64,000 nt of DNA. Source: Apostichopus japonicus. Lineage: Eukaryota; Echinodermata; Holothuroidea; Aspidochirotida; Stichopodidae. Both the position numbers and the translations under genes were made by a program. Positions 22,401 through 57,000 of this stretch are shown in pieces (position 1 is the first letter of the stretch; each line of letters starts with the position of its first letter). Below the pieces are notes generated by a model. It ran no database searches. It saw nothing but the letters and a program-made list of their open reading frames with translations, and was not told the origin of the DNA. The stretch spans positions 28,547,501-28,611,500 of the forward strand of contig NC_092580.1 of assembly GCF_037975245.1 (NCBI RefSeq), written 5' to 3'.

Positions 22401-25400
22401 CCACTCCTACCAGTGTTATCCTCTCCTCTGGGGTGACACTCATCTCAGCCGTCGAGCTTTCTCTTATCTCTACTGGTTTAACATCGTCCATCTTCATCTC
22501 CTCTTTCTTGATATCTGTTTCATCTGTCCCGAAATTCTTCATCGCATCTTTCTTTTTAATGTCTTCAATTTTCTGTTGCTCTTCTCTGATAAGCTATACA
22601 AAGACATAATTCATTTCCAAAGAAGATTTATGATAAAAGTTTTTCCTTTAAAACGAGTGAAAAATCTCCTGCTGATATTTTGGTTATCCCATCATTGAGA
22701 TACAATGTAACTTTATATGTTAGTTTCGTCAAGACTGACCCTTTCAGACAGGTTACCAGACACATAACAAGAACTTACTGGATAAAACAACTTTATCTTT
22801 TGGACGACCTAAAGGTAAAAGCTTGCTTCTCAAAGAACAACATACAAAATTTCTTTAAAATCAGCAAACATGATGGAATTTATCACTCTCTTAATACTTC
22901 TGGAAATCAACAAATCTGAATTTGAATAGCTTTCACATAATCAATGAGATTGTCAATGAAAAGTTAGATGGACTGACAAGTGGACAGAAGCACCTTTCAA
23001 CTATTTAACACATTGTATTGAAGTGTTGAATATCACTAATTTAAAATAAGGTTAGGATGTAGATATTGGACCAGAAAAGAAGAAAGACCCACCTTACTGA
23101 TTAATTCAAGGGTAAGAAATGCATTCTTATTTATTTGAAATATTTTTTGACTATGCACACAGCAATTGCAAGATGGTTTAAGTTAAGACGCCTAAGTTGG
23201 TTTCCAACACACTATGGCATATTTTGCACCTCTTGAATTAAATTCCCATCTAACACTTTTGTTAATACTAGCAATAGCCATAGGTGACATATTCAATTTT
23301 TTTGTGCACATCTTGCATATTACTGTGACAAAAACAGTATGAACTTTTCCTGCATATTAAAATAATCTATACATGTATAAACAAGCATAAAAGTTACATT
23401 TCAATAAATTGAATAAAAAGATTCCACAGGAAGGAGAGCGAGAGAGAGATGACTCTTCCTTACCCTCTGTATGGCCTGTCGGATAATCTGTCTGTTGGTA
23501 CGTAGAGTGTTTAGTTTCTCTTCGTAGCTCGACTGTCTGTCTGAGACCACTGCCATGAGATTGAAACGTATGTCGGACTCTCCTCTGAAGTGAGGAACCA
23601 AAAAAAAAAAAAAAATTAATTTAGGGATACCTTGGAAATGTGGTAATGGACACATAATGATTATATTGACCAATATGTGATAGAGTGCAAAAAATATTTA
23701 TTTATGACAGTATAAAGCATTGGCACTTGGTCACAGATATGGGTTACACTGATGACAACATTCCCTTAGCTGTCATTAAGACTAGGTTTGTAATATTACT
23801 TTCAACCATGTTGATAACATCCATTCAGTGTTTGAATTTTGAATGAAACACAGAAATGTTATTTCCATTTAATTTTGTGCAATTGTATCAGTGAACTTCA
23901 TGACTGTTTTACAGAACTTCATGTAGGGTTGGGCGATATATCGAAAATTATTATTATCGCGATAATTTTTTTTCAAGACGATATTTTTTGAGGATTGAAC
24001 ATATGACGATAATTTCTTGTAAAAGAAATTTGAAATAAATGTGGAAAAAATGCGATTATCCTTTTTCCGTTTTATGGGTAAATGTTATTCTAGCATTCCA
24101 TGGTTGAGAAAGTTGGAAAGAAATAAAGTTTATCAACTTCATTTACTGACTTTGAACTTCTTAAAAAAAAAAACGTCTTTTACAACACTGACTGTAGTCT
24201 GTATAGAGGGAAAAACTCTGAAAATGAGTAGAGAAATTACCAATTGTGTACGAACAGTAAGTTGGTTCACCTTTCAAATTTTACGAAAGATCGAGCAAAA
24301 TACTTTCGAAAAATTCACGCGAAACTGGCATATCGTGCTAAATGCAACTAATGTCATGTAAACAAGGCTCTAGTTCACCGATTTATGAATAAACAATAAG
24401 TCCACATCTGGTGTTAAGCGGGAGAAAAAGAAAGTATTTTCTAGAATTTCCCCCAAAAAAGAGGAAAAATTAATATCCTACCATAGTTAAGTGTATAGTA
24501 AATAGCCTAACCACTTCGTCGGTTACGGATCTCACGTAACAACAAAAACATAACTTATTGTTTTCTACAAGGACATGGAAACAATATTTAGCATTTAGTT
24601 AATCATGCAAAGTGGCTTAAAACGTGGGATTGCAAGGTTTACTTTCATAAAGACGTCCATACTGTAGCTATTGGGGCCTTGATATCGTGCTATGTCTGCT
24701 ATACTGTAGACTGTGCCTCGTGTATCATGGGGAATAGATTGTTTTGTTCATACGGAGGAGTCGGTTGGCTTGAGGTGTGTTTTTCTTACCTTAATGTTAC
24801 GGGGATATTTACCTACTTTTCTTGAACGTCTAAGATAATATTTCGCATAACTTTACCGATCCTTTATTGACTGACCTAAGTTTTTCTAGAGTGGAGCCAA
24901 AATAGTTTACGCCGTGAAAAGTTTTTTGGAAACGTGCCAAAAATGTTAACAAACAGGTGTTAGACAGGGGGGGTAGCACATGTACTGTAGCCTACCGTGA
25001 TATTTAAGTAGGGGTAAGCACTGCAGATGTAAACTGATGTACGTATAGTGCACGCTGTTCATTGTTAGGCAGTCTAGAAACGGGTCTTTACCGAACGTAG
25101 TTTGTTTCATATATATCGAAAGTTTTGTAAGTTAAACTTTTTAAAGATTGTAAGACAGATTAAATTATTTTCATTTTATCACATAATATAGCTGCTCTAA
25201 CTTGTCATTTCAAAATTTTCATCAGTTTCGTGACAATTTAAATTTAAAAAGTTGTCAGTATTTTGAATCCTCAACTTACGAATTTTTTATCGCCAGACAC
25301 ACAAAAATAATACTAAAATTTTCTGTGGTTATTTATTTTCAAGGGAACAGTTCATAACAAACTCAGATATTCTCTTTGAATGTCCCCACCATATATCTCT

Positions 25401-28987: not shown

Positions 28988-29210
28988 GATAGCCCTGAGA
29001 TCAAAATCAAAAGAAGCTCGGGGAAGGATTTAACCCCAGTAACAGTAATAGAAAAGGTCAAAATATACTCAAATCGCTGCTTGGACCTGGATATGAAAGT
29101 ATTACAGTAACAACACACAGTAGTAATAGTATGGGCCTGACAATGTAGTCGATGTACGTAGTGATGTATACCGTACCGCCGTTGTTCACTGCAGCAGAAT
29201 GGTGAATTGA
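28988..29210. promoter_or_regulatory. Probable BAP1 5' flank and promoter region
   Basis: These 223 bp separate the BAP1 start codon from the first base of the large repeated unit. The unique upstream sequence must lie here unless the promoter extends into the repeat. No TATA box or other defined element could be assigned by eye. Confidence 0.3.
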
Positions 29211-29379
29211 CCGGTGTGAAGTTAGATACTTATTCCCCGTTCCTCGTTCGACATTCGCGAATGAGTAACTGATACCTATTCAGTTGCGTATTCGACAATG
29301 GTATCGACGTAACACCTCTGGCAAGACAAAAGCTTTCTTACAAGATGTTCAACATTTGGTCGTGGAAAGAGGTTTATCT

Positions 29380-30842
29380 ATGGCCCATGGGTCATATGAA
29401 CTCTAATGACTATGTAGAAGGGTACCATAATGCATTTTGCCCGGTCCAAATAGTTCTTGACCAACTAAAATGACTAGTACTTCATCAGTTCTTAAATTAA
29501 TGTAAAAAAATTACTTTAGGCCCTAATCAAGACTAGCACGCCTTGGACTACCTTACCAATGGGTCATATGAATTCTTAACACATTGTAGAAGTGTACCAT
29601 AACGCGTCTTGCCCGGTCCACAGAGTGCTTGACCAATTAAAATGACCATTAAATCAACATTTTTTTTAAATAAATGTAACGGGAACTGAAATTAAAACAT
29701 TTGGGCCTTAATCAAAACCAGCACGCCTTGGACCGCCTAACCAATGGGTCATAGGAAGTCTAAGGACATTGTAGAAGGGTAACATAATGCGTCTTGCCCG
29801 ACCCAAAGAGTGCTTGACCAATTTAAATGACCACTAATTCATTCCTTTTTTTAATGAGTGTAACGGGACCACGAAAAAGCTTTGGGCCCTAATCCATGCA
29901 GCACGCCTTGAATCACCAAACCGATGGTTAACATGAACTCTAAGGACATTGCATAAAAGTACCATAATGCGTCTTGCCCCGTCCAAAGAGTGCTTGACCA
30001 ATTTAAATGACCACTAAATCATTACTTCTTTAATGAGTAAAATGGGACAACGAAAAAGCTTTGGGCCCTAATCCATGCAGCACGCCTTGGATCACCAAAC
30101 CGATAATTAACATGAACTCTAAAGACATTGTAGAAGAGTAACATAATGCGTCTTGCCCCGTCCAAAGAGTGCTTGACCAATTTAAATGACCACTAAATCA
30201 TTACTTCTTTAATGAGTGTAACGGGTCCACGAAGAAGCTTTGGGCCCTAATCCATGCAGCACGCCTTGGATCACCAAACCTATGGGTAACATGTACTCTA
30301 AGGACATTGTAGAAGACTACCATAATGCGTCTTGCCCGGTCCAAAGAGTGCTTGACCAATTAAAATGACCACTAAATCATTACTTCGTTAATTAATGTAA
30401 ATGGATCTGCCAACATCTTTAGGCCCCAGTCAAGACCAGCACGCCTTGGACCACCTAACCAATGGGTCATAGGAAGTCCAAGGACATTGTAGAAGGGTAC
30501 CATAATGCGTCTTGCCCGGTCCAAAGAGTGCTTTACCAATTTAAATGACCACTAAATCATTGCTCCTTTAATGAGTGTAACGGGACCACGAAAAAGCTTT
30601 GGGCCCTAATCCATGCAGCACGCCTTGGATCACCTAACCAATGGTTAACATGAACTCTAAGGACATTGTAGAAGAGTACCATAATGCGTCTTGCCCGGTC
30701 CAAAGAGTGCTTGACCAATTTAAATGACCATTAAATCATTACTTTTTTAATGAGTGTAACGGGACCACGAAAATAATCACTTTGGGCACTTATCAAGGCT
30801 AGCACGCCTTGGACCACCCAACCATTGGGTCATATGAATTCT
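29380..30842. repeat. 179-bp satellite, array 1, about 8 monomers
   Basis: Words such as CATAATGCGTCTTGCCCGGTCC, GAGTGCTTGACCAATTTAAATGACC, TTTGGGCCCTAATCCATGCAGCACGCCTTGGA recur every 179 bp (for example the AAATGACC word at 30005, 30184 and 30363). The first monomers are the most diverged and the later ones more uniform. The array ends against the transposon that starts at 30859. Confidence 0.95.
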
Positions 30843-30858
30843 TATTTATGGCCGCATG

Positions 30859-32058
30859 CAGGGACGTAGCTAAGGCCTGATGATTGGGGGGGTGGGTGTA
30901 GTGGCTGAAATTCCAACTGGATGGGTTTTGGAGCCGGAAAATTCCGACTGCTGCCTTGTACCCCCCCTTCCTCCCAGCACTACTCGTCAACGAAACGGTC
31001 AGTGTCAGTCAGACACCCTATCTTTCGCGACTGCACTTTTGTTCCGAACTTTTTTTCGGTACTGTTGTACCCCTTGCCCTCACTTCACAAACTTATTAAT
31101 CACTGTGGTTAATTAAGCGAGTAAGCAATTGAGTATAGGTTATCTGCTTGAGAGGCTACATAGACTACTAACTACAAAAGCTATGTTCATGTAACAAAGA
31201 GGAAAACAACAAATTTTCAACAAATTATATTCGACGACATAGTGAGATTACCCCAAAATACAGTGCTTTTTCCTATCGCGCTTAATATTATTTTCTTGGG
31301 TGGGGGGAGGGGGTGAGACTATTTATCACTCACATGAAAAAAGGATTTGGAATTTGGAGCATTTGGAATGAATTTAACAATTAAAAATTTTGCAGAAAAA
31401 TGTTGAGTTGACGAGATACGATAAGTTGTCACTTAAACATTTTGCAGAAAATTTTTCAATTGCTCAGATGGAATGAAGTGAACAATTGAACATTTTGCAG
31501 CACGTCCAATTCACGAGATACGATAGGTTGTCAATTAAACGTTTTTCAGAAAGTTGTTCAATTGCTCAGTTAAAGCAACTGAGCAATCCAACCTTTTTTC
31601 TGTTTTTTGATAAGATTTTATCTTGTACTCTAAACAATTTACTGAAAAATTTCACCTTATAGGGCAAAGTGTTTCTTATGTTGATGGCATTTTTAAGCTT
31701 CCGTAGATTAGCATTGAGCGTTTTAACTGTATACGATGTACAGTATTTTTGTTAGGCATTTTTTTTACGGTATTCAAAATTATAACAAGTTTTGTATGGT
31801 GGAGTGCAAGGATAACGAGATACAATTTCTCAATTTGACAAGGAAAACGTGATAAATATGACTGATTAAAGGTCAATTGTGGCCGAAAACTTTAGGTCAC
31901 TAACAAATTACAAGAATATATGAATATTAGAGTGCGACAGTCGGAAAAATTAGAGTGCGACAGTCGTAAATTCCGACTGTCGCACTCAAATCTTCCAACT
32001 ATCGTCAGTTTTGCCAAGATTGGGGGGTGAGACACCCCCTACAACAGCGACGTCCCTG
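30859..32058. mobile_element. 1.2-kb non-autonomous DNA transposon, CAGGGACG family, copy 1
   Basis: The ends CAGGGACGTAGC and GCGACGTCCCTG are inverted repeats. The flanks are GCCGCATG (30851-30858) and GCCTCATG (32059-32066), an 8-bp target duplication with one change. The interior has no coding capacity. It contains repeated segments of about 100 bp built on CAATTGAACATTTTGCAG and CGAGATACGATA (31360-31600) and a strong hairpin at 31953-31987. The 8-bp duplication points to the hAT class. Confidence 0.85.
31953..31987. repeat. 14-bp perfect hairpin inside the CAGGGACG element
   Basis: GAGTGCGACAGTCG, 7 bp loop, CGACTGTCGCACTC. A further direct copy of GAGTGCGACAGTCG starts at 31930. The second element copy keeps the hairpin with one mismatch at 48775-48809. 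Confidence 0.85.
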
Positions 32059-33330: not shown

Positions 33331-36042
33331 ACCTTATGGAACAATCCCGAGTGTCAGTTAGCTTCAGGATTAAAACACCTTTCGAAGCTACCAACAGCTG
33401 CACCTGTTACGAATACGAAACAAAATTACAAACATGTGCTGTATACATGGCATAATGATATCACGTCCGTTAGGAGTATTGTTTTTCGTGTCCTGTTATT
33501 CCTAAACAGACAACAGCCGGTATTCTTTTGTTGGGAGAATACCATTGCGTTTCGTTTATGCTTGATGACCATAGTTCCTTCATGACACTGCAATACGGAA
33601 ACCCCGACAAGCCGTTCTGATTTCCTAGCTTTCGGTGTTTGTGTAGATTAAATTACCTTCTGATATGTTCATTGGGTCTACGATACAATGCAATCTAGTA
33701 TTCACTGCATAATGTGTTTTCGAAAGGACGTAATCTTTGTTCCAGTAGTGGTTAGCGCGTGCTCCCCCCAATTATCTTAGCAGCTACCCTTTCCACGATC
33801 GCTCATAACGAGGCTTTATACTTGTTTTGTTACTTTATTGCCGCGATGAATCTTTTCTCATATCTTGTGATATATAGCCTACCGTGTTCGTTTAGGTTCG
33901 TGGTGGATAAGCAAAAACGACAAGAAAATACATGAGAAATTCACCTGCGGCAGAAATGAAGCATTATTCCACTGAACATTTGGTAGCTTGTCACAAACGG
34001 TAGGTTTTACATTACAATCGCCGAAATGTTGGGGGAAATTCCCGTAGTGTGGTCAAGGTTTACAGAATTTTGCAAATTAGCGTCCTATTCCATTGGGGTA
34101 ACGTTACGATTGGTCAATATAATTAAGGTTTGTCATGGGTCGTGTATCGTGGGCACAAATTCGTCCACCATAATATTAACCTGGACAAGACTACATACTT
34201 CACCCAGATATTCCTTATTGCACTTATATCAGTTTGCATGTAAAAGGCTTGTTTGTATTTTCTGCTGCAGAGTCCGACTCGCAAAGAGACGAAATCTTAT
34301 GCAAAACAGAAATGAATAAACATTGTTGAAATCTCTGTGTACGTTTTGTAGTGCATGAAGCATAAATAGAGCCAAAAGGGAAAGGGAGGATTCTTGCTTT
34401 TACCGTGAGAGGAGGAGGACTACACTGTGCAAGTTAAAGTAGAATTCTATGGTGTTCGGGTAGTAGGAGGCCGGGAGGGATGTTTCGTGCGCTCATCTAA
34501 GCAAGAGTAGGGCTTTTGGGTACCTGGTGTGAGGGGTGTGTGGGTGTGGGGGGGGGGGCACATTTTCGTCACCATTTTGAGAAAACTTTGTTTCAGTAAA
34601 GGGGAATTAGATGCAAAATGGTTCTATCAGTTTATTTACTTCCAGTACCTTCCTGAATAGGATATGCCTTTGGAAGAAACTTACGCGACAGCTCAGAGCC
34701 ACACGTGCTGCAACGTTTAACGTTCTTCTGTCCTTCATCGATGTACTCTCTTCGCTTCTTCTTATATGCGATAGTTGCACACGTTCTTACTGAAACTGTC
34801 AATATCATCCCGATGATTTATGGCCGTACACGGATCCTCGCCTTGCCAGGAATTAATGACACAGAAAAGCATAAGAAACAACGTAAACTCTCTTGATTTG
34901 TTCTCACCGAAATGGTACTCCATTTATCTTAAACTATTAAAAATTTTCTTAGTTAGATTTGGATTTTCCCACACCAACGTTCCTCCTGTGAAGTACGCGT
35001 TCGACACTAACGTAACGTCTGTTAACGGGATGCTCACTTGAGGCTTCCGTACATAAAAATATATTACCGTATGAATTTTCAATGTCACTGTGTAGAGTTT
35101 ATCATTTACATTAAGCTGAACTTAGTGAACATGGGGTGTTTTCTGGTGCGATTTACACCCCTTCCCCCAGCTGGTGAGTTAACTTTACAACACAGCTTTC
35201 TTTTCTTTCAATAACTTTCCAATATTTGGAAATTCCATCACTGTTTATGTTAAGATAATGTTTAAAGTATTAACGTGTTAATGATATATGATTATTTTAA
35301 TTATAGGCCTCTACATTGTAGAGAGTTTATTTAATCCTATCACTTAGCCAGTAGCCTCGCGATTTGTAAATCATAAGATATCTTACGGTACAATATTAAA
35401 TATTAAAAGTTAAAGAAATATTAAAAGTTATATTCACATCACGGCTCTGAGGCCGGTGTCACGTGGTCGGCATTCAAGTGATGTAAATTCAAAATTCTCA
35501 GTTCCAGTGCTCCTACGTTTCACAATTTTGGATTAAAGAAAACTTTTGATGATGGAACGTCTTATCTTTGTTTTAAGAAAGAAAGAAAGGAAGGGAAAGG
35601 AGGAATATACATAGGTGATACGAGCCATAATTATAACTATGAAGAGACGTACAAAATTGTGATTGTCTGATATGAAAGACATGAAAGCATTGACTCAAAT
35701 TTATGTCCTTGCTTTATATCTCTCTGTCTGTCTATAGAAATGAAACCCTCTGTCTTACAATAAATGTTTGAAATCAAGTAGGCTGGTATAAAATTCCCTA
35801 CACCAGACAGTAACCAATGGCGACGGTAGTCCCATAAAGTGCTTCAAATTCTTTTCTTACTTGATATGATCTAATGTTAATATGGTGAGATACTTCCTCA
35901 TTGCCAGTGGATGCGTAAACTGGCCACCTCTACTCACTTTCAGTTCTGGCTTTAGATCGTTTTCTACTGATGCACCCCATCCCCAATCTTGATTCCTACA
36001 CAGAGAAATACATCTTTTGCCCAAACTTCACTTTTGATGTTG
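33331..36042. repeat. Block with candidate exon 1; duplicated at about 51340-54046
   Basis: The left 600 bp are clearly diverged between units. From about 34000 the two copies are nearly identical. Apart from the candidate first exon at 35131-35173 I see no coding sequence: the 97-codon frame starting at 34026 is interrupted by a stop in the unit B copy. Confidence 0.75.
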
Positions 36043-39000
36043 CTGAAATCCAAGGGCGTAGGAACCGGGGGGCTGGGGCGCCAGCCCCCCAGTGAAATAT
36101 ATTGGGCGGAAGTATCATTCCTCCCCCCCTAGCTCCGCAAGTCAGAAAACCCCTTTTTCATTTCCAAATGAGAAAAAAATCTCATTTGGAGCACCAAATT
36201 ACATCTAAGGCCAGGTGAAAATGCAAAATTATTTACAAAACTGGAGTGGGTGTTGAAGTGTGCTATATTGCACCAAATTGCGTCTGAGTCCACCTAGAAA
36301 TGCAAAAAAAAAATCCAAAGGGGGACACCCCTCCCCTTATACCCCTCCCCCAGGCCGGCCATCAGTCTTCAGCTCCCCCCACCCCAGGCGCGGCGGAACG
36401 GGAAAATTATTGGGGGGGGGGGGCTAATGTGTGCATGGAGACTATCTAAGCGGAGCGCCACCATCGGTTGGCGCGGAGCGTACAAGAAAATTTTGTGTTT
36501 TTTCAAACACCCAGATGGCCGGAAACGGCACTTCCCGGGTGTTTTATGCTGCGAATACCTAGCCCTAAAATATGGGTCTCAAGCCTGCAATTTCTCATAT
36601 TGCACGTAAAAGTCTGTAAAAACATTGTAATTTGTATATTCGATGGTGTTTTAAGAGAGTAGCTATTACTCGTAGTGTACTCGCAAAGACGTTTTTGAGT
36701 GTAGTAAGGGCAGTGGCGGAGCTAGGGGTATTGGTCAGGGGGGCAAGAATGGTCTGTAGGGGCGCTTTCGACACTATCTAAGCGGAGCGCCACCACAGGT
36801 TGGCGCGGAGCGTACAGAAAAGTTTTGATTAAGATACTCCCTAGATTGCAGGAAATGACCCTTTCCGGCCCCTACTAATTTGCAGATAAACGGAGAATAA
36901 ATAGGTGTCGTCGCCATTGTGTCGGAAAATTACACCAACAGAATATGACAAATGTCAATAGGTATATGAGAGCGCAACAAAATAGTCAATAATCGCGAAT
37001 AAGTAAAAAGTAGTGAAAAGCTGAAAAGGGCGCCAGCAGTCCATTTGAGTCCATCGGGGGGGGGGGGGCATCCGCCCCCTGACTGTATATATGAACGCTC
37101 CGCCACTAAGAAAGGGGATGTTGGAGGACTGGCTGAAATGAGGCAAGACATTGGCCTAAGACGAAGTTGTGTTACGCTTACCGGTACTCACACTCACTGC
37201 TTCCACTTTTCACGGGGCGTGAAGACGCGGTTGGGGTGACAATGTGGTCTATAGCCAGGGGACGGGCCGAGGGTCCCCCAGCAATTACTAAAATTATTGT
37301 ACCTATATAGTATACGTGTGCATCGGACAGATCGACAAGTATGCATTGAAAAATGGGCAGATGCACGTTTCGGAGCCTTGGTAAATATTGGGGGGGCTTA
37401 TCATGAATTTGCCCCCTCAACTTTTTCATTGGGGGGCTGAGCCCCCCAAGCCCCCCCGGTTCCGCCGCCACTGCCCCACCCCCACTCAAAGTATCTTCCT
37501 ACGCCACTGCTGAAATCGGTCTTCAATAGGCCATATCGATACTTGGCCTGATGCCAAATCGGGTAAAGTTCACAGGCAAAGCACAGGGAAGATATTTTAG
37601 TGAGATATTGGGTGCGGGGACAGTTGACTGAACAAATAAACAAAGGTGGTGTTTAACAATAGGAAAGTATGTGTTTGACAAAGGTAAAACATTGTACGAA
37701 GACAAGATTTCACTACTTCATGCACTCGTTTTTGAGAAACAAAGTAGTCGAATTTTCAAAACAAATATGTAAATGTAGAGTAAAGCAGTACACATTTGAG
37801 AAATCGTTTGAGACATACAACAACAACAAAAAATCGGTATATGTAGTTTCGAAATTTAAAGGGGGAAAAGTAGTAGTCTCAATTATTTACAATTTCTTAT
37901 GTTCTATCTGGGCCACTATAAAATTCGTATGGAGAGGCTCGTAAAACCGCGCCCATTTCTGCCCACCTTTCCCACTATTTGTTAGCTTACAAGGGCGGCG
38001 GAACCGGGGGGGCACAGGGGGCACGTGCCCCCCCACTTTTCCTCAGGGTTAAAAATGTGCCCTTTTTCTACATAAAAATTGAGGTGTCTCAAGTTAGCAA
38101 GAGGCCAGGGAACCGGAATGAACACTCGGGAAGGGCCGTTTCTGGCCATCTGAGGGGTTTGTAAAACCAAAAATTTTCTTGTACGCTCAGCGCCAACCGA
38201 CGGTGGCGCTCCGCTCAGATAGTCGTGCATACAAGTTTGGATATTGCAGAGCTAGTATGCATATTTTCTATGAAAGGGGTGGGGGGAGGGCGTTGATGGA
38301 GTGATGTGTATACGCAAAAAAGATAATACAATAAGAGTTATAAAAGGGTACTAAATATAAGGCTACATCAGTCCAATCGAATTTCTGCAAATTAAGTGCC
38401 CTTTGATGTCGGTGCCCCCCAGATTAAAAGTGCTTCCGCCGCCCTTGTTAGCTTATCATATAACCACGCCTCTTATTATAATTTGGAAAGATATTCTTCA
38501 AATATTTCAAGGTATAAGTTATTCTGTAACACAAAGAGAGCATGGCAATATATGGGGAAGAGGACCCAAACATTCCCGTCATTGAAGGTTGGCATATAGA
38601 CTTTGGATGTTCAAAATTCTTTTTTGATTCAGATTTAACTTAAGTTCGTTATCATTGTTTATTCGATTTTGTTGTTAGGTTTGCTACAATGCAGCTTCAT
38701 GCAGCCCCCCTCCCCATCCCTTCGGACCCGCCCACCATATGGGACCTACAAATACGTTCCACGGAAATTTAATTCTTCTCTCCACATATATTTTTGTGTT
38801 TTAAACGAGAAACAAAGATAAAAAACAAAGACGCCAAATTCAAAATTTTCCGGGGACTTCGTCGCCTGTTACCCATTTGTCTTAGTTATTTTCATAATTC
38901 GTTTCTTTATGTTAGTTATTTGTGTACTCTATGTACAGGGAGTGTCTCACTAGATAAGCCCACAATGATTTTTTTGATACACTTGCTTTCACATTCCATA

Positions 39001-42000
39001 ACTCTCTGCATTAGCTAATTAAAATGTGTACATGTTGTGAGAAAAAAAAAACAAATAAATAAACGAAACGAAACGATAATGTGGTCGTTTATGGCGTAAT
39101 TCGGTTTTCACTTAAGATAATGATGTTTTATGTCAAATCGAAATGTTTAAATCGGATTTGTTCACCCCTAATTTCAACTTTCATCTAAAACATATGATAT
39201 TTTGCTATTAAATGGTGACGTTTTACTTTGAAGTTTTAAACGTGTTTTTTCCTTATTTATAGCTTATTTTAGCATGAACACCTATATTTGAGTAATTGTG
39301 ACATCTCAATTACACTCGTGAGATTAGACGTGTTTGCTATATCATCCTTTCTCTTTGAGTCACTTCATTGATATTTCTGATCTGGTCTTTACATTCTCTG
39401 TTTTTCATATACTTTTCCAGTCCAGTGTACTGAGGATCATGATATCCAGGATGTCCGACATGATAGGAGCCTACTTGGTCTCCAGATTCATCCTCCCAGG
39501 GTTCAATCAGTTCCTACAGAGTTTGGTACGCCGTCATGTTTGTTAAATGTTCATCTTATTGCAGGATATGTAAAGCATTAACAGATTATTCTTACCAGGA
39601 TTTTAGTATCTTGATATATCATAATCCAAGAAATTAGAAACTTCACTTCAAGTAATATGTTAATATCCCTGCTTTCTCTGCCAACATATTGGCTTCATTA
39701 AAGTAAGATTACAAGAAATATTAAGTTGTTAAAGCAAACTTACTAGTTCCACGATCCATCGCTATAGTTACTACGTATAATTATCATGCATATTCATTAA
39801 CTGCAATATATTGAACAGCCAGTTGGTACAAATTTTCCAATGCTTCACCACGTTATTGTCTTATATTGAACAGCCGTTTTAAACTTTATCAAGTATAAGC
39901 GAGGTGTTCACACATCGTCAATGCGATTGCTTTGAAGCAGGATATGAAAGTACATCAATACCAAATATTGTCCCAACTGAGTGATATTAAATAAACCACT
40001 GTATCAATGTAACCACATATGTAATCAATTTAACCACGACTTCAAGTTTCCTTAATATTTGATTCGTATCTCGTAACGTTAACAATTCCCGAACGTTTAC
40101 TATCAAACCTAACCCCTAAAACATTGATCCATCCTCAAGTTTCCTTAATATTCGGTTCGTATCCCGTAACGTTAACAATTCCCAAACGTTTCCTTACTAA
40201 AGTATCATATTTAATCAAGGTTGGGCGAAATGACCAGGCTGGTTGGGGGAAATGACCAGGCTGGTTGGGCGAAATGACCAGGCTGGTTGGACGAAATGGT
40301 AAGGTTGGGCGAAATGGCAGTTGGGCGAAATGGTTGTTGGGCGAAGTCCTTCCGTCGAGTACTTGTAAGTCAAGTACATCCGGGTACTTCGGGTTTCGAG
40401 TTACAAGCTCTAGTCCGATTACTGTTTTAATAATCCAAGTACCGAAATGGAGTACTTTTTCATCCGGCTTCTTTTTCGAGTACTTTTTCGAGTTCCATAT
40501 AAAAATTCCGTTAAGTTAATGTTCAAAGATTAAATTTAAAGGGGGAAAAGTACTAGTCTCAATTATTTACAATTCTTATGTTCTATCTGGGCCACTATAA
40601 AATTCGTATGGAGAGGCTCGTAAAACCGCGCCCATTTCTGCCCACCTTTCCCACTATTTGTTAGCTTACAAGGGCGGCGGAACCGGGGGGACACAGGGGG
40701 CACGTGCCCCCCACTTTTCCTCAGGGTTAAAAATGTGCCCTTTTTCTACATAAAAATTGAGGTGTCTCAAGTTAGCAAGAGGCCAGGGAACCGGAATGAA
40801 CACTCGGGAAGGGCCGTTTCTGGCCATCTGAGGGGTTTGTAAAACCAAAAATTTTCTTGTACGCTCAGCGCCAACCGACGGTGGCGCTCCGCTCAGATAG
40901 TCGTGCATACAAGTTTGGATATTGCAGAGCTAGTATGCATATTTTCTATGAAAGGGGTGGGGGGAGGGCGTTGATGGAGTGATGTGTATACGCAAAAAAG
41001 ATAATACAATAAGAGTTATAAAAGGGTACTAAATATAAGGCTACATCAGTCCAATCGAATTTCTGCAAATTAAGTGCCCTTTGATGTCGGTGCCCCCCAG
41101 ATTAAAAGTGCTTCCGCCGCCCTTGTTAGCTTATCATATAACCACGCCTCTTATTATAATTTGGAAAGATATTCTTCAAATATTTCAAGGTATAAGTTAT
41201 TCTGTAACACAAAGAGAGCATGGCAATATATGGGGAAGAGGACCCAAACATTCCCGTCATTGAAGGTTGGCATATAGACTTTGGATGTTCAAAATTCTTT
41301 TTTGATTCAGATTTAACTTAAGTTCGTTATCATTGTTTATTCGATTTTGTTGTTAGGTTTGCTACAATGCAGCTTCATGCAGCCCCCCTCCCCATCCCTT
41401 CGGACCCGCCCACCATATGGGACCTACAAATACGTTCCACGGAAATTTAATTCTTCTCTCCACATATATTTTTGTGTTTTAAACGAGAAACAAAGATAAA
41501 AAACAAAGACGCCAAATTCAAAATTTTCCGGGGACTTCGTCGCCTGTTACCCATTTGTCTTAGTTATTTTCATAATTCGTTTCTTTATGTTAGTTATTTG
41601 TGTACTCTATGTACAGGGAGTGTCTCACTAGATAAGCCCACAATGATTTTTTTGATACACTTGCTTTCACATTCCATAACTCTCTGCATTAGCTAATTAA
41701 AATGTGTACATGTTGTGAGAAAAAAAAAAACAAATAAATAAACGAAACGAAACGATAATGTGGTCGTTTATGGCGTAATTCGGTTTTCACTTAAGATAAT
41801 GATGTTTTATGTCAAATCGAAATGTTTAAATCGGATTTGTTCACCCCTAATTTCAACTTTCATCTAAAACATATGATATTTTGCTATTAAATGGTGACGT
41901 TTTACTTTGAAGTTTTAAACGTGTTTTTTCCTTATTTTATAGCTTATTTTAGCATGAACACCTATATTTGAGTAATTGTGACATCTCAATTACACTCGTG

Positions 42001-43351
42001 AGATTAGACGTGTTTGCTATATCATCCTTTCTCTTTGAGTCACTTCATTGATATTTCTGATCTGGTCTTTACATTCTCTGTTTTTCATATACTTTTCCAG
42101 TCCAATGTACTGAGAATAATGATATCCAGGATGTCCGACATGATAGGAATCTACTTGGTCTCCAGATCCATCCTCCCAGGGTTCAATCAGTTCCTACAGA
42201 GTTTGGTACGCCGTCATGTTTGTTAAATGTTCATCTTATTGCAGGATATGTAAAGCATTAACAGATTATTCTTACCAGGATTTTAGTATCTTGATATATC
42301 ATAATCCAAGAAATTAGAAACTTCACTTCAAGTAATATGTTAATATCCCTGCTTTCTCTGCCAACATATTGGCTTCATTAAAGTAAGATTACAAGAAATA
42401 TTAAGTTGTTAAAGCAAACTTACTAGTTCCACGATCCATCGCTATAGTTACTACGTATAATTATCATGCATATTCATTAACTGCAATATATTGAACAGCC
42501 AGTTGGTACAAATTTTCCAATGCTTCACCGCGTTATTGTCTTATATTGAACAGCCGTTTTAAACTTTATCAAGTATAAGCGAGGTGTTCACACATCGTCA
42601 ATGCGATTGCTTTGAAGCAGGATATGAAAGTACATCAATACCAAATATTGTCCCAACTGAGTGATATTAAATAAACCACTGTATCAGTGTAACCACATAT
42701 GTAATCAATTTAACCACGACTTCAAGTTTCCTTAATATTCGATTCGTATCTCGTAACGTTAACAATTCCCGAACGTTTACTATCAAACCTAACCCCTAAA
42801 ACATTGATCCATCCTCAAGTTTCCTTAATATTCGGTTCGTATCCCGTAACGTTAACAATTCCCAAACGTTTCCTTACTAAAGTATCATATTTAATCAAGG
42901 TTGGGCGAAATGACCAGGCTGGTTGGGGGAAATGACCAGGCTGGTTGGGCGAAATGACCAGGCTGGTTGGGCGAAATGGTAAGGTTGGGCGAAATGGCAG
43001 TTGGGCGAAATGGTTGTTGGGCGAAGTCCTTCCGTCGAGTACTTGTAAGTCAAGTACATCCGGGTACTTCGGGTTTCGAGTTACAAGCTCTAGTCCGATT
43101 TCTGTTTTAATAATCCAAGTACCGAAATGGAGTACTTTTTCATCCGGCTTCTTTTTCGAGCACTTTTTCGAGTTCCATATAAAAATTCCGTTACGTTAAT
43201 GTTCAAAGATTAGTATTGTAAGCAAACGAAAATTAATAACCTGACATCGTTGTCTTTGATTGTTATAGATGAGCTAAGCCCAGCAATTTCCACTGACCGT
43301 TGTTCATCTGAAAATGGACGCTTGGTAACCTATCCCACCGACAACCATTGA
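35131..43351 (+). CDS. Candidate three-exon gene of unknown function, copy A
   Basis: Not recognised; predicted from splice sites, phase and conservation. Exon 1 (35131-35173) starts with a good Kozak context (GAACATGG) and reads MGCFLVRFTPLPPA, ending at G/GTGAGT. Exon 2 (39421-39525, or its tandem copy 42101-42205) follows TTTTCCAG and ends TTTG/GTACG. Exon 3 (43269-43351) follows TTGTTATAG and reads DELSPAISTDRC, ends YPTDNH and stops. AATAAA lies 45 bp later at 43396-43401. Both introns are phase 1, so the 105-nt middle exon is symmetric. The product would be 76 residues. An MGC start could be myristoylated or palmitoylated (inference). No signal peptide or membrane segment is seen. The +1-shifted frame of exon 2 is also open (VLRIMISRMSDMIGAYLVSR), so the frame is not proven. 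Introns hold the nested transposons. Confidence 0.33.
36385..37473. mobile_element. hAT-like element, middle member of the nest (unit A)
   Basis: The ends CAGGCGCGGCGGAACGGG and CCGGTTCCGCCGCCACTG are inverted repeats. The 8-bp duplication is CCCCACCC at 36377-36384 and 37474-37481. The left part carries the GCGGAGCGCCA core (about 36444-36480). Confidence 0.82.
36711..37108. mobile_element. hAT-like element, innermost member of the nest (unit A)
   Basis: The left end CAGTGGCGGAGC and the right end GCTCCGCCACTA are inverted repeats. The flanks AGTAAGGG (36703-36710) and AGAAAGGG (37109-37116) match at 7 of 8 positions. The interior again contains CTATCTAAGCGGAGCGCCA. Confidence 0.8.
37990..38447. 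mobile_element. hAT-like MITE, CAAGGGCGGCGG family
   Basis: The ends CAAGGGCGGCGGAAC and CTTCCGCCGCCCTTG are inverted repeats with the perfect 8-bp duplication TTAGCTTA (37982-37989 and 38448-38455). An 82-codon minus-strand open frame inside recurs in every copy, but it overlaps the GCGGAGCGCCA core and looks incidental. Confidence 0.92.
38750..39070 (+). mobile_element. Possible LINE 3' tail
   Basis: The segment ending TACAGGGAGTGTCTCACTAG, followed by an AT-rich stretch, an A run and CAAATAAATAAACGAAACG repeats, looks like the 3' end of a LINE with a short-repeat tail. A related layout occurs at 43790-43940. No reverse-transcriptase sequence is present, so the class is uncertain. Confidence 0.3.
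39421..39525 (+). other. Candidate exon 2a (variable middle exon)
   Basis: 105 nt between TTTTCCAG and GTACG. In the phase given by candidate exon 1 it reads V-QCTEDHDIQDVRHDRSLLG and continues LQIHPPRVQSVPTEF. It differs from its two paralogues at nine sites between 39425 and 39488, while the flanks are almost unchanged. Confidence 0.4.
40219..40346 (+). repeat. Minisatellite GGTTGGGCGAAATGACCAGG
   Basis: Six to seven imperfect copies of a 15-23 bp unit built on TTGGGCGAAATG. The same array recurs at 42899-43026 and 58234-58360. Confidence 0.9.
40669..41125. mobile_element. hAT-like MITE, CAAGGGCGGCGG family, copy in second Y block
   Basis: Same insertion as 37990-38447, with the same TTAGCTTA duplication. 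It was therefore present before block Y duplicated. Confidence 0.92.
42101..42205 (+). other. Candidate exon 2b (tandem alternative of exon 2a)
   Basis: Same splice sites and length as 39421-39525. In the same phase it reads V-QCTENNDIQDVRHDRNLLG. Because the exon is symmetric (phase 1 at both ends), either copy, or both, could be spliced in without a frameshift. Confidence 0.38.
42899..43026 (+). repeat. Minisatellite, second copy
   Basis: Copy of the GGTTGGGCGAAATGACC array at 40219-40346. Confidence 0.88.
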
Positions 43352-45017: not shown

Positions 45018-46318
45018 ATCTATGGCCCATGGGTCATATGAACTCTAATGACTATGTAGAAGGGTACCATAATGCATCTTGCCCGGTCCAAATAGTTCTT
45101 GACCAACTAAAATGACCAGTACTTCATCAGTTCTTAAATTAATGTAAAAAATTACTTTAGGCCCTAATCAAGACTAGCACGCCTTGGACCACCTTACCAA
45201 TGGGTCATATGAATTCTTAACACATTGTAGAAGGATACCATAATGCGTCTTGCCCGGTCCAAAGAGTGCTTGAGCAATTAAAATGACCATTAAATCAACA
45301 GTTTTAAAATAAATGTAACGGGAACTGAAATAAAAACATTTGGGCCCTAATCAAAACCAGCACGCCTTGGACCGCCCAACCAATGGGTCATATGAAGTCT
45401 AAGGACCTTGTAGAAGGGTAACATAATGCGTCTTGCGCGGTCTAAAGAGTGCTTGACCAATTAAAATGACCACTAATTCATTACTTTTTTAATGAGTGTA
45501 ACGGGACCACGTAAAAGCTTTGGGCCCTAATCCATGCAGCACGCCTTGGACCACCTAACCAATGGTTAACATGAACTCTAAGGACATTGTAGAAGAGTAA
45601 CATAATGCGTCTTGCCCGGTCCAAAGAGTGCTTGACCAATTTAAATGACCACTAAATCATTACTTTTTTAATGAGTGTAACGGGACCACGAAAAAGTTTT
45701 AGGTCCTAATCCATGCAGCACGCTTTGGAACACCTAACCAATGGGTAGCATCAACTCTAAGGACATTGTAAAGAGTACCATAATGCGTCTTGCCCGGTCC
45801 AAAGAGTGCTTGACCAATTCAAATGCCCACTACATCATCACTTCTTAAATGAATGTAACAGGATCACGAATAAAAAGCATTTGGGCCCTAATCAAGACCA
45901 GAACGCCTTGGACCACCTACCCGATGGGTCATATGATGTTTTAAGACAGTGTAGAAGATTTCCATAATGCGTCTTGCCCGGTCCAAAGAATGCTTGACCA
46001 ATTCAAATGCCCACTACATCATCACGTCTTAAATGAATGTAACAGGATCACGAATAAAAAGCATTTGGGCCCTAATCAAGACCAGAACGCCTTGGACCAC
46101 CTAACCGATGGGTCATATGATTTTTTAAGACAGTGTAGAAGAGAACCATAATGCGTCTTGCCCGGTCCAAAGTGTGCTTGACCAATTTAAATAAGTAAGT
46201 AAGTAAGTATAACTTTATTGCTCCAAATAAGGAAATTAGTGTCTCGCACATCGTAACTCGTTCACTCCCCGTGCAATCAAACTTGACCACTACATCATCA
46301 CTTCTTAAATGAGTGTCC
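45018..46318. repeat. 179-bp satellite, array 2, about 7 monomers
   Basis: Same monomer as array 1, with CATAATGCGTCTTGC recurring about every 179 bp. It is interrupted near its right end by the retroposon-like tail at 46192. Confidence 0.94.
46192..46286 (-). mobile_element. Truncated retroposon 3' tail inside the satellite
   Basis: On the minus strand the segment ends GGAGCAATAAAGTTATACTT and then (ACTT)n. This is the layout of a LINE or SINE 3' end with a short-repeat tail. It breaks a satellite monomer, which resumes as ACCACTACATCATCAC at about 46286. Confidence 0.6.
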
Positions 46319-51339: not shown

Positions 51340-54046
51340 GTATGACTACAGTGTCAGTTACCCACAGGAGTAAACCAGCTTAGTAAGCATTAAAACGCTG
51401 CACCTGTTACCAACGAATACAAAATACAACCACGAACGTGCGCTGTATACATAAGGTGATGTCATGTCCGTTGAAAAATTGATTGTTGTTTTATTTTATA
51501 ACGTTCGAAAAAAGATAAAAGTTGCTACTCTTTTGGTGGGAGAATATAGATCATATTCGTGTATGCTTGGTGAGACAAGTAATTTCGTGCCGCTGCAGTA
51601 CGGAAACCCCGACAGGCCGTTCTGCTCTCTTAACTTTCGGTGTTTGTGTAGGTTAAATTGTGTTATCATGCGTTGATCAGGTTTCGGATACAATGTAGCG
51701 TAGTATCCAATTTCCAGTTTATTTGCCAAAGACCTAATCGTTGTTGCAGTAGTGGTTAGCGTGTGCTCCCCCAATTGTTTTAGCAGCTACCCTTTCCACG
51801 ATCCCTCATAACAAGGCTGTATGCTTTTTTTGTTGCTTTAATGCAGCGATAATTCTTCTCTTGTGTTGAGATATATAGCCTACCGTGTTTGTTTAGGTTC
51901 GTGGTGGATAAGAAAATACGACAGGAAAATAAATGAGAAGTTCACCTGCGGCAGAAATGCAGCATTCTTCCACTGAAAATTTGGTACCTTTTCACAAACG
52001 GTAGGTTTTACATTACAACTGCCGAAATGTTGGGGGAAATTCCCATAGTTTGGTGAAGGTTTACAGAATTTTGCAAATTAGCGTCCTATTCCATTGGGGT
52101 AACGTTACGATTGGTCAATATAATTAAGGTGTGTCGTGGGTCGTCTATCGTGGGCACAAATTCGTCCACCATAGTATTAACCTGGACAAGATTACATAGT
52201 TCACCCAAATATTCCTTATTGCACTTATATCAGTTTGCATGTACAAGGCTTGTTTGTATTTTCTGCTGCAGAGTCCGACTCGCAAAGAGATGAAATCTCA
52301 TGCAAAACAGAAATGAATAAACATTGTTGAAATCTCTGTGTACGTTTTGTAGTGCATGAAGCATAAATAGAGCCAAAAGGGAAAGGGAGAATCCTTGCTT
52401 TTACCGTGAGAGGAGGAGGACTACACTGTGTAAGGTAAAGTAGAATTCTATGGTGTTCGGGTAGGAGGAGGCCGGGAGGGTGTTTAATGCGCTCACCTAA
52501 GCAAGAGTAGGGCTTTTGGGTACCTGGTGTGAGGGGTGTGTGGGTGTGGGGGGGGGGCACATTTTCGTCACCATTTTGAGAAAACTTTGTTTCAGTAAAG
52601 GGGAATTAGATGCAAAATGGTTCTATCAGTTGATTTACTTCCAGTACCTTCCTAAATACGATATGCCTTTGGAAGAAACTTACGCGACAGCTCAGAGCCA
52701 CACGTCCTTCAATGTTTAACGTTCTTCTGTCCTTCATTGATGTACTCTCTTCGCTTCTTCTTATATGCGATAGTTGCACACGTTCTTATTGAAACTGTCA
52801 ATATCATCCCGATGATTTATGGCCGTACACGGATCCTCGCCTTGCCAGGAATTAATGACACAGAAAAGCATAAGAAACAACGGAAACTTTCTTGATTTGT
52901 TCTCACCGAAATGGTACTCCATTTATCTTAAACTATTAAAAATTTTCTTAGTTAGATTTGGATTTTCCCACACCAACGTTCCTCCTGTGAAGTACGCGTT
53001 CGACACTAACGTAACGTCTGTTAACGGGATGCTCACTTGAGGCTTCCGTACATAAAAATATATTACCGTATGAATTTTCAATGTCACTGTGTAGAGTTTA
53101 TCATTTACATTAAGCTGAACTTAGTGAACATGGGGTGTTTTCTGGTGCGATTTACACCCCTTCCCCCAGCTGGTGAGTTAACTTTACAACACAGCTTTCT
53201 TTTCTTTCAATAACTTTCCAATATTTGGAAATTCCATCACTGTTTATGTTAAGATAATGTTTAAAGTATTAACATGTTAATGATATATGATTATTTTAAT
53301 TATAGGCCTCTACATTGTAGAGAGTTTATCTAATCCTATCACTTAGCCAGTAGCCTCGCGATTTGTAAATCATAAGATATCTTACGGTACAATATTAAAT
53401 ATTAAAAGTTAAAGAAATATTAAAAGTTATATTCACATCAGGACCTAAGCTCTGAGGCCGGTGTCACGTGGTCGGCATTCAAGTGATGTAAATTCAAAGT
53501 TCTCAGTTCCAGTGCTCCTTCGTTTCACAATTTTGGATTAAAGAAAACTTTTGATGATGGAACGTTTTATCTTTGTTTTAAAAAAGAAAGAAAGGAAGGG
53601 AAAGGAGGAACTACGTAGTTGATACGAGCCATAATTATAACTATGAAGAGACGTACAAAATTGTGATTGTCTGATATGAAAGACATGAAAGCATTGACTC
53701 AAATTTATGTCCTTGCTTTATATCTCTCTGTCTGTCTAAAGAAATGAAACCCTCTGTCTTACAATAAATGTTTGAAATCAAGTAGGCTGGTATAAAATTC
53801 CCTACACCAGACAGTAACCAATGGCGACGGTAGTCCCATAAAGTGCTTCAAATTCTTTTCTTACTTGATATGATCTAATGTTAATATGGTGAGATACTTC
53901 CTCCTTGCCAGTGGATGCGTAAACTGGCCACCTCTACTCACTTTCAGTTCTGGCTTTAGATCGTTTTCTACTGATGCACCCCATCCCCAATCTTGATTCC
54001 TACACAGAGAAATACATCTTTTGCCCAAACTTCACTTTTGATGTTG
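51340..54046. repeat. Unit B copy of the exon 1 block
   Basis: Paralogous to about 33331-36042 with only scattered differences after 52,020. The 97-codon frame at 34026 is broken by TGA in this copy, which argues that it does not encode a protein. Confidence 0.8.
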
Positions 54047-57000
54047 CTGAAATCCAAGGGCGTAGGAACCGGGGGGCTGGGGCGCCAGCCCCCCCAGTGA
54101 AATATATTGGGCGGAAGTATCATTCCTCCCCCCCCCTAGCTCCGCAAGTCAGAAAACCCCTTTTTCATTTCCAAATGAGAAAAAAATCTCATTTGGAGCA
54201 CCAAATTACATCTAAGGCCAGGTGAAAATGCAAAATTATTTACAAAACTGGAGTGGGTGTTGAAGTGTGCTATATTGCACCAAATTGCGTCTGAGTCCAC
54301 CTAGAAATGCAAAAAAAAAATCCAAAGGGGGACACCCCTCCCCTTATACCCCTCCCCCAGGCCGGCCATCAGTCTTCAGCTCCCCCCACCCCAGGCGCGG
54401 CGGAACGGGAAAATTATTGGGGGGGGGGGGGCTAATGTGTGCATGGAGACTATCTAAGCGGAGCGCCACCATCGGTTGGCGCAGAGCGTACAAGAAAATT
54501 TTGTGTTTTTTCGAACACCCAGATGGCCGGAAACGGCACTTCCCGGGTGTTTTATGCTGCGAATACCTAGCCCTAAAATATGGGTCTCAAGCCTGCAATT
54601 TCTCATATTGCACGTAAAAGTCTGTAAAAACATTGTAATTTGTATATTCGATGGTGTTTTAAGAGAGTAGCTATTACTCGTAGTGTACTCGCAAAGACGT
54701 TTTTGAGTGTAGTAAGGGCAGTGGCGGAGCTAGGGGTATTGGTCAGGGGGGGGGCAAGAATGGTCTGTAGGGGCGCTTTCGACACTATCTAAGCGGAGCG
54801 CCACCACAGGTTGGCGCGGAGCGTACAGAAAAGTTTTGATTAAAGATACTCCCTAGATTGCAGGAAATGACCCTTTCCGGCCCCTACTAATTTGCAGATA
54901 AACGGACAATAAATAGGTGTCGTCGCCATTGTGTCGGAAAATTACACCAACAGAATATGACAAATGTCAATAGGTATATGAGAGCGCAACAAAATAGTCA
55001 ATAATCGCGAATAAGTAAAAAGTAGTGAAAAGCTGAAAAGGGCGCCAGCAGTCCATTTGAGTCCATCGGGGGGGGGGGGGGCATCCGCCCCCTGACTGTA
55101 TATATGAACGCTCCGCCACTAAGAAAGGGGATGTTGGACTGGCTGAAATGAGGCAAGACATTGGCCTAAGACGAAGTTGTGTTACGCTTACCGGTACTCA
55201 CACTCACTGCTTCCACTTTTCACGGGGCGTGAAGACGCGGTTGGGGTGACAATGTGGTCTATAGCCAGGGGACGGGCCGAGGGTCCCCCAGCAATTACTA
55301 AAATTATTGTACCTATATAGTATACGTGTGCATCGGACAGATCGACAAGTATGCATTGAAAAATGGGCAGATGCACGTTTCGGAGCCTTGGTAAATATTG
55401 GGGGGGGGGGGGGGGCTTATCATGAATTTGCCCCCTCAACTTTTTCATTGGGGGGCTGAGCCCCCCAAGCCCCCCCGGTTCCGCCGCCACTGCCCCACCC
55501 CCACTCAAAGTATCTTCCTACGCCACTGCTGAAATCGGTCTTCAATAGGCCATATCGATACTTGGCCTGATGCCAAATCGGGTAAAGTTCACAGGCAAAG
55601 CACAGGGAAGATATTTTAGTGAGATATTGGGTGCGGGGACAGTTGACTGAACAAATAAACAAAGGTGGTGTTTAACAATAGGAAAGTATGTGTTTGACAA
55701 AGGTAAAACATTGTACGAAGACAAGATTTCACTACTTCATGGACTCGTTTTTGAGAAACAAAGTAGTCGAATTTTCAAAACAAATATGTAAATGTAGAGT
55801 AAAGCAGTACACATTTGAGAAATCGTTTGAGACATACAACAACAACAAAAAATCGGTATATGTAGTTTCGAAATTTAAAGGGGGAAAAGTACTAGTCTCA
55901 ATTATTTACAATTTCTTATGTTCTATCTGGGCCACTATAAAATTCGAATGGAGAGGCTCGTAAAACCGCGCCCATTTCTGCCCACCTTTCCCACTATTTG
56001 TTAGCTTACAAGGGCGGCGGAACCGGGGGGGCACAGGGGGCACGTGCCCCCCACTTTTCCTCAGGGTTAAAAATGTGCCCTTTTTCTACATAAAAATTGA
56101 GGTGTCTCAAGTTAGCAAGAGGCCAGGGAACCGGAATGAACACTCGGGAAGGGCCGTTTCTGGCCATCTGAGGGGTTTGTAAAACCAAAAATTTTCTTGT
56201 ACGCTCAGCGCCTACCGATGGTGGCGCTCCTCTCAGATAGTCGTGCATACAAGTTTGGATATTGCAGAGCTAGTATGCATATTTTCTATGAAAGGGGAGG
56301 GGGGGGGGCGTTGATGGAGTGATGTGTGTACGCAAAAAAGATAATACAATAAGAGTTATAAAAGGGTACTAAATATAAGGCTACATCAGTCCAATCGAAT
56401 TTCTGCAAATTAAGTGCCCTTTGATGTCGGTGCCCCCCCCCCCAGATTAAAAGTGCTTCCGCCGCCCTTGTTAGCTTATCATAACCACGCCTCTTATTAT
56501 AATTTGGAAAGATATTCTTCAAATATTTCAAGGTATAAGTTATTCTGTAACACAAAGAGAGCATGGCAATATATGGGGAAGAGGACCCAAACATTCCCGT
56601 CATTGAAGGTTGGCATATAGACTTTGGATGTTCAAAATTCTTTTTTGATTCAGATTTAATTTAAGTTCGTTATTGTTTATTCGATTTTGTTGTTAGGTTT
56701 GCTACAATGCAGCTTCATGCAGCCCCCCTCCCCATCCCTTCGGACCCGCCCACCATATGGGACCTACAAATACGTTCCACGGAAATTTAATTCTTCTCTC
56801 CACATATATTTTTGTGTTTTAAACGAGAAACAAAGATAAAAAACAAAGACGCCAAATTCAAAATTTTCCGGGGACTTCGTCGCCTGTTACCCATTTGTCT
56901 TAGTTATTTTCATAATTCGTTTCTTTATGTTAGTTATTTGTGTACTCTATGTACAGGGAGTGTCTCACTAGATAAGCCCACAACGATTTTTTTGATACAC

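Follow-up and report, generated by a model that had tools for sequence, protein, structure and literature searches.

Three copies of a short exon-like segment in the genome of the sea cucumber Apostichopus japonicus lie in almost identical surroundings, and the initial annotation of this locus reported that they differ far more within the segment than on either side of it, a pattern that, it suggested, diversifying selection, localized gene conversion from unseen copies, or targeted mutation could each produce. The questions raised are whether this concentration of differences is real, whether it recurs in other copies of the segment, and which process could account for it. Some recent copies change several times faster than the surrounding DNA, without the replacement excess that selection on a protein normally leaves. 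The stretch of DNA analyzed (the window) is 64,000 nucleotides long (C20:28547501-28611500), and the searched genome comprises 671.6 Mb in 35 contigs. Translated exons from this genome were assembled into a ferritin that matches PDB chain 7vhr at all 173 of 173 residues, a chain described as A. japonicus ferritin (PMC8886333), which places the sequence in that species or a very close relative. The copies at positions 39421, 42101, and 57436 of the window are referred to as W1, W2, and W3, and L numbers denote fetched loci. The C20 copies are W1, W2, W3, and L001.

Nine differences in a duplicated segment

Alignment of the three window copies placed the nine differing exon sites exactly where they had been reported (39425, 39435, 39438, 39459, 39462, 39463, 39469, 39470, and 39488). 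The segment that holds them, 39425 to 39488 on the forward strand, is densest in differences across the four codons at 39459-39470, which read H-D-R-S in the majority of copies. The 120 bp before 39421 contained a single difference, at 39362, and, as described previously, there was none just after the donor, positions 39489-39849 being invariant among the three copies. The reported amino acid changes (D/N, H/N, H/N, D/I, and S/N/I, plus two silent changes) and the presence of A in at least one copy at seven of the nine sites were also borne out.

W1 is contained in a unit at 37852 to 40532 (forward strand) that is repeated in tandem at 40532-43212 with 99.3% identity, and in a larger unit at 33521 to 40532 (forward strand) that is repeated at 51526-58547 with 97.0% identity. 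Between W1 and W2, 6 of the 15 substitutions fell within 105 of the 2,678 aligned bases (hypergeometric P=1.2e-5), a 16-fold exon/flank ratio, and the densest 64-bp interval began at 39425, with a count that was reached by 2 of 2,000 permutations. The exon held 7 of the 36 substitutions between W2 and W3 (P=2.4e-4). The exon excess between W1 and W3 over 7 kb reached only P=0.036. When the first 380 bp were excluded, the densest 64-bp interval in that comparison (seven differences) started at 33903, at the unit edge; the exon had six differences per 64 bp, as did other edge intervals, and some inner intervals had five.

The module and its genomic surroundings

Of 31 aligned rows, 21 have a CAG splice acceptor at the bases equivalent to 39406 to 39408 (forward strand). 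CAT replaces it in six rows (W1, W2, W3, L001, L014, and L018), and the remaining four are not comparable. The acceptor that remains in W1, which was taken as the exon boundary in the initial annotation and delimits an exon at 39421-39525 (forward strand) in the alignment, is probably secondary. Because the acceptor of the 21 rows lies 12 bp upstream of 39421, it would yield a 117-bp exon with phase 1 at both ends (phase read by eye). By this ancestral acceptor, the W1 copy of the exon-like module occupies 39409 to 39525 on the forward strand (39 codons). The W2 and W3 copies, also on the forward strand, occupy 42089 to 42205 and 57424 to 57540, with ends set by offsets of 2,680 and 18,015 bp, respectively.

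The module sits in duplicated sequence, in units that are 97 to 99% identical, and about 32 dispersed copies, partly incomplete, were found on nine contigs (C1, C3, C9, C13, C14, C15, C17, C18, and C20). A 400-bp query gave 40 genome matches, some of which were pieces of one place. The 120-bp exon query and the protein query gave 33 matches each, counts that take in incomplete copies, one interrupted copy present as two pieces (exon query), and a second module (protein query). At C3:3.66 Mb this second module, also 117 bp long and bounded by an AG and a GT of its own, follows the first at a distance of 0.6 kb downstream; the two have 73 of 117 bases in common, and their protein score was matched by none of 20,000 shuffles.

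Several features of the copies bear on whether the module encodes protein. In-frame stops were absent from all 33 matches, partial ones included, and in a neutral simulation of 24 copies (400 runs) a stop-free outcome arose in 4.5%. Gap runs were divisible by three in 4 of 4 cases in the exon versus 53 of 169 in the flanks. The shortened modules of L012, L013, and L026 (78, 78, and 75 bp, counted by hand) keep the donor site and the reading phase. Omega was 0.88 over 24 copies, a set that excludes eight of the 32 exon matches for being partial or diverged (L012, L013, L019, L025, L026, L028, L029, and L030), and 0.92 over 17 copies, neither value being different from 1; the range across large copy sets was 0.83 to 0.92. 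These omegas count against coding, as does another forward frame of the module, which has only two stops. The frame, splice sites, and indel phase make it probable, but leave it unproven, that the module is a coding exon. A minus-strand reading that looked exon-like at first sight was rejected because it contains stops in 24 of the 33 matches. The module alone had no match in Pfam or NCBIfam and one in PDB (E=0.41), Rfam searches of the surrounding 2.8 kb returned only six matches, all under the gathering score, and the RNA and DNA folding of 39411-39530 was ordinary (z of -0.12 and 0.71).

On C3, from 22.42 to 21.96 Mb, one strand carries, in alternation, 11 module places, one of which (L027, 22.372 Mb) comprises flank only, and 11 places with similarity to a gene that, from its domains and sequence, we take to be TENT4 (poly(A) polymerase). 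PAP_assoc was found on one exon of the TENT4-like places, and the array is headed by the single match to the amino-terminal part of the TENT4 query, at 22431583. Stops are present in several of the TENT4-like copies in the array at C3:21.96-22.43 Mb (L032, L038-L044). Below the last C3 module lies a gene, presumably SPG7 (paraplegin) on the same grounds, with AAA, Peptidase_M41, and FtsH_ext on three exons; the C3 copies are placed between the end of the TENT4-like gene and the start of the SPG7-like gene. In the sampled C3 unit (L032, L038-L041), SPG7-like 5' exons come first, TENT4-like 3' exons follow, and the module is last; because the two sets of exons have this order on one strand, chimeric transcripts are conceivable. 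Joining of the module to the SPG7-like gene was considered and rejected: in exon 1 of that gene a stop precedes the ATG by two codons and exon 2 begins in phase 0, so that a phase-1 donor reads into neither (read by eye). A frame that stays open upstream of the module copy at C3:3.66 Mb, initially read as part of an integrase-like gene, was likewise discarded, since it forms part of a dispersed repeat that is matched 120 times. A dispersed repeat family matched 120 times in the genome accounts for the open frame at positions 5831-6154 of L036.

Colinearity between the C20 units and the C3 unit is partial. The best match of the TENT4 query in the window had an E value of 4.3, and within the alignable stretches C20 and its relatives had no further exon of similar length in common. 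Within window positions 29 to 46.5 kb, where at least two relatives aligned, a test for conserved splice sites and frame was passed only by the module and by shorter pieces at positions 39293, 41973, and 43269. Every large unit, like the C3 unit, contains tandem-repeat arrays with a period of ca. 180 bp, which in the window lie at 29209-30842, 45026-46192, and 61360-64000, and positions 301-2207 hold a further, separate array with a period of ca. 182 bp. C20 and one C3 unit agree at every base over a stretch of 63 bp (38876-38938), and the adjoining stretches are only ca. 81 to 86% alike; the C3 counterpart of the stretch ends at an insertion related to window positions 30854-32039. Long open frames on the minus strand at 21178-22593, which include a histidine run and a lysine-rich stretch, are possibly exons of an unrelated gene.

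Recurrence and age of the exon excess

The claim that the exon-like segment is more variable than its flanks was upheld in pairs beyond those first inspected, and in other pairs the excess was absent or reversed. Fourteen pairs were compared, which share copies and are therefore not independent. The clearest case away from C20 was L003-L009, on another contig, in which 8 of 105 exon sites differed versus 9 of 577 in the flank (P=0.0018; 4.9-fold). W3 and L001 differed at 4/105 versus 7/1100 sites (P=0.011; 6-fold). The excess was weaker in L015-L022 (6/99 versus 13/573; P=0.047), L015-L023 (7/105 versus 18/571; P=0.09), and L022-L023 (6/99 versus 16/576; P=0.12). There were no exon changes in L004-L005, L004-L006, L005-L006, or L007-L008, and no excess in L017-L018 (ratio, 1.1) or L015-L021 (ratio, 0.3). 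The relationship was reversed in L016-L021 (exon, 0/105; flank, 39/564; P=0.002) and L015-L016 (exon, 1/105; flank, 36/567; P=0.02). The five-copy L015 group as a whole lacked an excess (rate of 1.0 at an omega of 1), with 11 derived alleles in the 105-bp exon versus 30 in a 260-bp flank.

Over five nonoverlapping young pairs, two of them without exon change, the Mantel-Haenszel odds ratio was 5.1 (z of 6.2). It is conceivable that the cluster arose by chance in unconstrained orphan copies and was chosen as the most variable place; the modest W1-W3 excess, the equally variable intervals elsewhere in that comparison, and the loss of the common acceptor from the C20 copies would all fit. However, the excess is repeated by pairs outside the set initially annotated, and the odds ratio was still 3.7 (z of 3.8) without W1-W2 and 3.0 (z of 2.6) after both C20 pairs were removed, which makes such a coincidence highly improbable. 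Errors of assembly or polishing, or the mixing of haplotypes, might also be suspected in near-identical copies that are young and partly tandem. This explanation is improbable as well, because the pattern is repeated in L003-L009 on a different contig, the spectrum of changes is ordinary, with the usual transition bias (kappa of ca. 3), and none of the substitutions creates a stop in the frame used in the initial annotation.

Another candidate is homogenization of the flanks, rather than acceleration of the exon. When the C20 exons were compared with the outgroup L014, 8 to 10 of 105 sites differed, versus 2.0 to 3.5% of the ca. 490-bp homologous upstream flank (P of 0.006 to 0.016); for W1 the counts were 8/105 and 10/490 (P=0.0067). 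The outgroup itself had an exon/flank ratio of 1.0 against L018 (5/105 versus 21/443) and 1.3 against L017. Ratios for the C20 copies were 2.1 to 2.5 against L017 (P of 0.045 to 0.09) and 1.2 to 1.7 against L018, the latter not significant (P of 0.16 to 0.59). Flank homogenization as the whole cause is unlikely given the L014 result, though the comparison with L018 was not significant.

The excess depends on the age of the copies. Among 91 pairs from 14 fully homologous copies, which are not independent pairs, the exon/flank rate ratio dropped as flank divergence rose, from 7.2 (11 pairs) through 2.0 (8 pairs), 1.5 (17 pairs), and 0.73 (26 pairs) to 0.62 (29 pairs). The possibility that flanks vary as much as the exon genome-wide, which the initial annotation had raised, thus holds for old pairs, with the two lowest ratios at flank divergences above 10%, and fails for young pairs, with the highest ratio below 2%. 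The exon excess is young, and over the long run the exon evolves no faster than its flanks. A genome-wide count in which the exon was less variable than the flanks was set aside as confounded, since the flanks are not homologous in every copy. Nonhomologous flank also affects the rates below 1 of the remaining copies, and large sets were therefore judged on omega only.

Selection, conversion, or local mutation

Polarized against other copies, the C20 copies have 12 derived alleles, 9 replacement and 3 silent (hand count), in line with neutral expectation; the case is limited to these 12 changes, and the silent excess to 3, one of which shares a codon with replacements. For the C20, L003/L009, and L015 groups together there were ca. 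23 replacement and 8 silent changes (hand count, one change being readable either way), and the neutral expectation is 72% replacement. A codon model of the C20 copies with rate and omega both free gave a rate of 6.8 times and an omega of 1.23. With the rate forced to that of the flank, so that selection alone had to explain the excess, omega rose to 8.5 and the fit was worse by 3.1 log-likelihood units (2dlnL of 6.2). The L015 group had an omega of 0.34, and a value of 0.73 was obtained both for the accelerated copies together with L003 and L015 and for the HDRS codons by themselves.

Diversifying selection might nevertheless act on the encoded 39-residue module, most strongly at the H-D-R-S codons, in the manner of NPIP in primates, with the silent changes carried along in multinucleotide mutations. 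The open frame free of stops, the exon gaps in multiples of three, the in-frame lengths of L012 and L026, and the second homologous module favor this explanation, as does L003-L009, with seven replacement changes to one silent. The free fit for that pair (rate of 2.6, omega of 2.35) was not distinguishable from an omega of 1, and by itself the pair cannot separate mutation from selection. Against selection are the omegas for the 24 copies, the accelerated set, and the HDRS codons, the neutral proportion of replacement changes, and the poorer selection-only fit in C20. An excess of replacement over silent changes like that of NPIP was not found: the counts match expectation, and the omegas are not distinguishably above 1. 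Diversifying selection alone is not supported as the cause, and a selective origin of the pattern is somewhat unlikely.

Diversification of the kind associated with diversity-generating retroelements is defined by changes that start at adenines. The adenine bias hinted at previously does not reflect such targeting, because only 3 of the 12 polarized C20 changes start at A, and 25 of the 105 exon bases are A.

Localized conversion would be compatible with the clustering of changes: five lie inside 12 bp when W3 is set against the common form, and four inside 6 bp in L009. In L002 a C20-like downstream flank is joined to an exon that shares variants with L010, L011, and L020 (read by eye), and this mosaic makes exchange between copies plausible. 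Some derived alleles recur in at least one other aligned copy: 5 of the 8 seen in L003/L009 do so, as do 2 of the 11 from the L015 group. However, 9 of the 12 derived C20 alleles are in no other aligned copy (3 of the 12 are), and a 26-bp string in W3 had no other source within three mismatches in the assembly, save L001 (three mismatches). Donors within the assembly are thus disfavored. Short tracts might have come from copies or haplotypes that sit in assembly gaps, outside the searched sequence, but this origin is distinctly unlikely.

The best reading, which we hold tentatively, is that bursts of local substitution strike the exon without regard to codons; selection ranks second and conversion from unassembled donors third. 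The 117-bp module has spread through segmental duplication into ca. 32 copies. In some young duplicates (C20; L003/L009), the data show that the exon, mostly its first two-thirds, has been substituted 5 to 16 times faster than the flanks, with replacement sites not favored over silent ones. The cause may be recurrent, local, error-prone events (error-prone repair of breaks, for instance) or, in an alternative form, short conversion tracts out of copies missing from the assembly, and long-term constraint would subsequently remove most of the variation. Weighing against this reading are the small counts, the pairs and the L015 group that lack an excess, the nonsignificant comparison with L018, the L003-L009 fit, which suits selection equally, and a search for signatures of mechanism that turned up none, folding and spectrum both being ordinary. 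The stronger proposition, that a segment of an exon in an animal germ line is repeatedly hit by local, codon-blind mutation after duplication while the introns are spared, is doubtful at present. If the origin is mutational, ca. 64 bp can be a germ line substitution hotspot in an animal outside the known programmed systems; if it is selective, the module points to an echinoderm protein family that evolves fast. Because the young copies have almost identical flanks, selection and mutation are directly separable with reads, trios, and populations.

No title among the matches listed for A. japonicus genome, duplication, and gene conversion literature, or for sea cucumber paraplegin/SPG7, concerned this module family. 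Arthropod Dscam has arrays of variable exons with constant neighboring exons and mutually exclusive splicing. The module resembles Dscam arrays in having several symmetric copies of one exon on the same strand within an array, and differs in that its copies are spread over nine contigs.

The nearest known parallel appears to be the accelerated exons found in segmental duplications of primates, NPIP among them. As reported in one study, exon differences in primate segmental duplications exceed those of flanking introns in exon-versus-intron comparisons, with rapid evolution of coding sequence (PMC3906575). The module is similar to the exons described there in lying within duplicated sequence and in its exon excess over flank in C20 and L003-L009, but unlike that rapid coding evolution, C20 shows a rise in silent changes as well as in replacements. 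For NPIP (morpheus), within the LCR16a core duplicon, another report describes a significant replacement excess of exons in African apes (PMC7419210). Unlike NPIP as presented there, the module has no significant replacement excess; like it, the module belongs to a dispersed duplicated block in which the frame is kept open, with exon bursts specific to some lineages and neutral change in others (PMC7419210).
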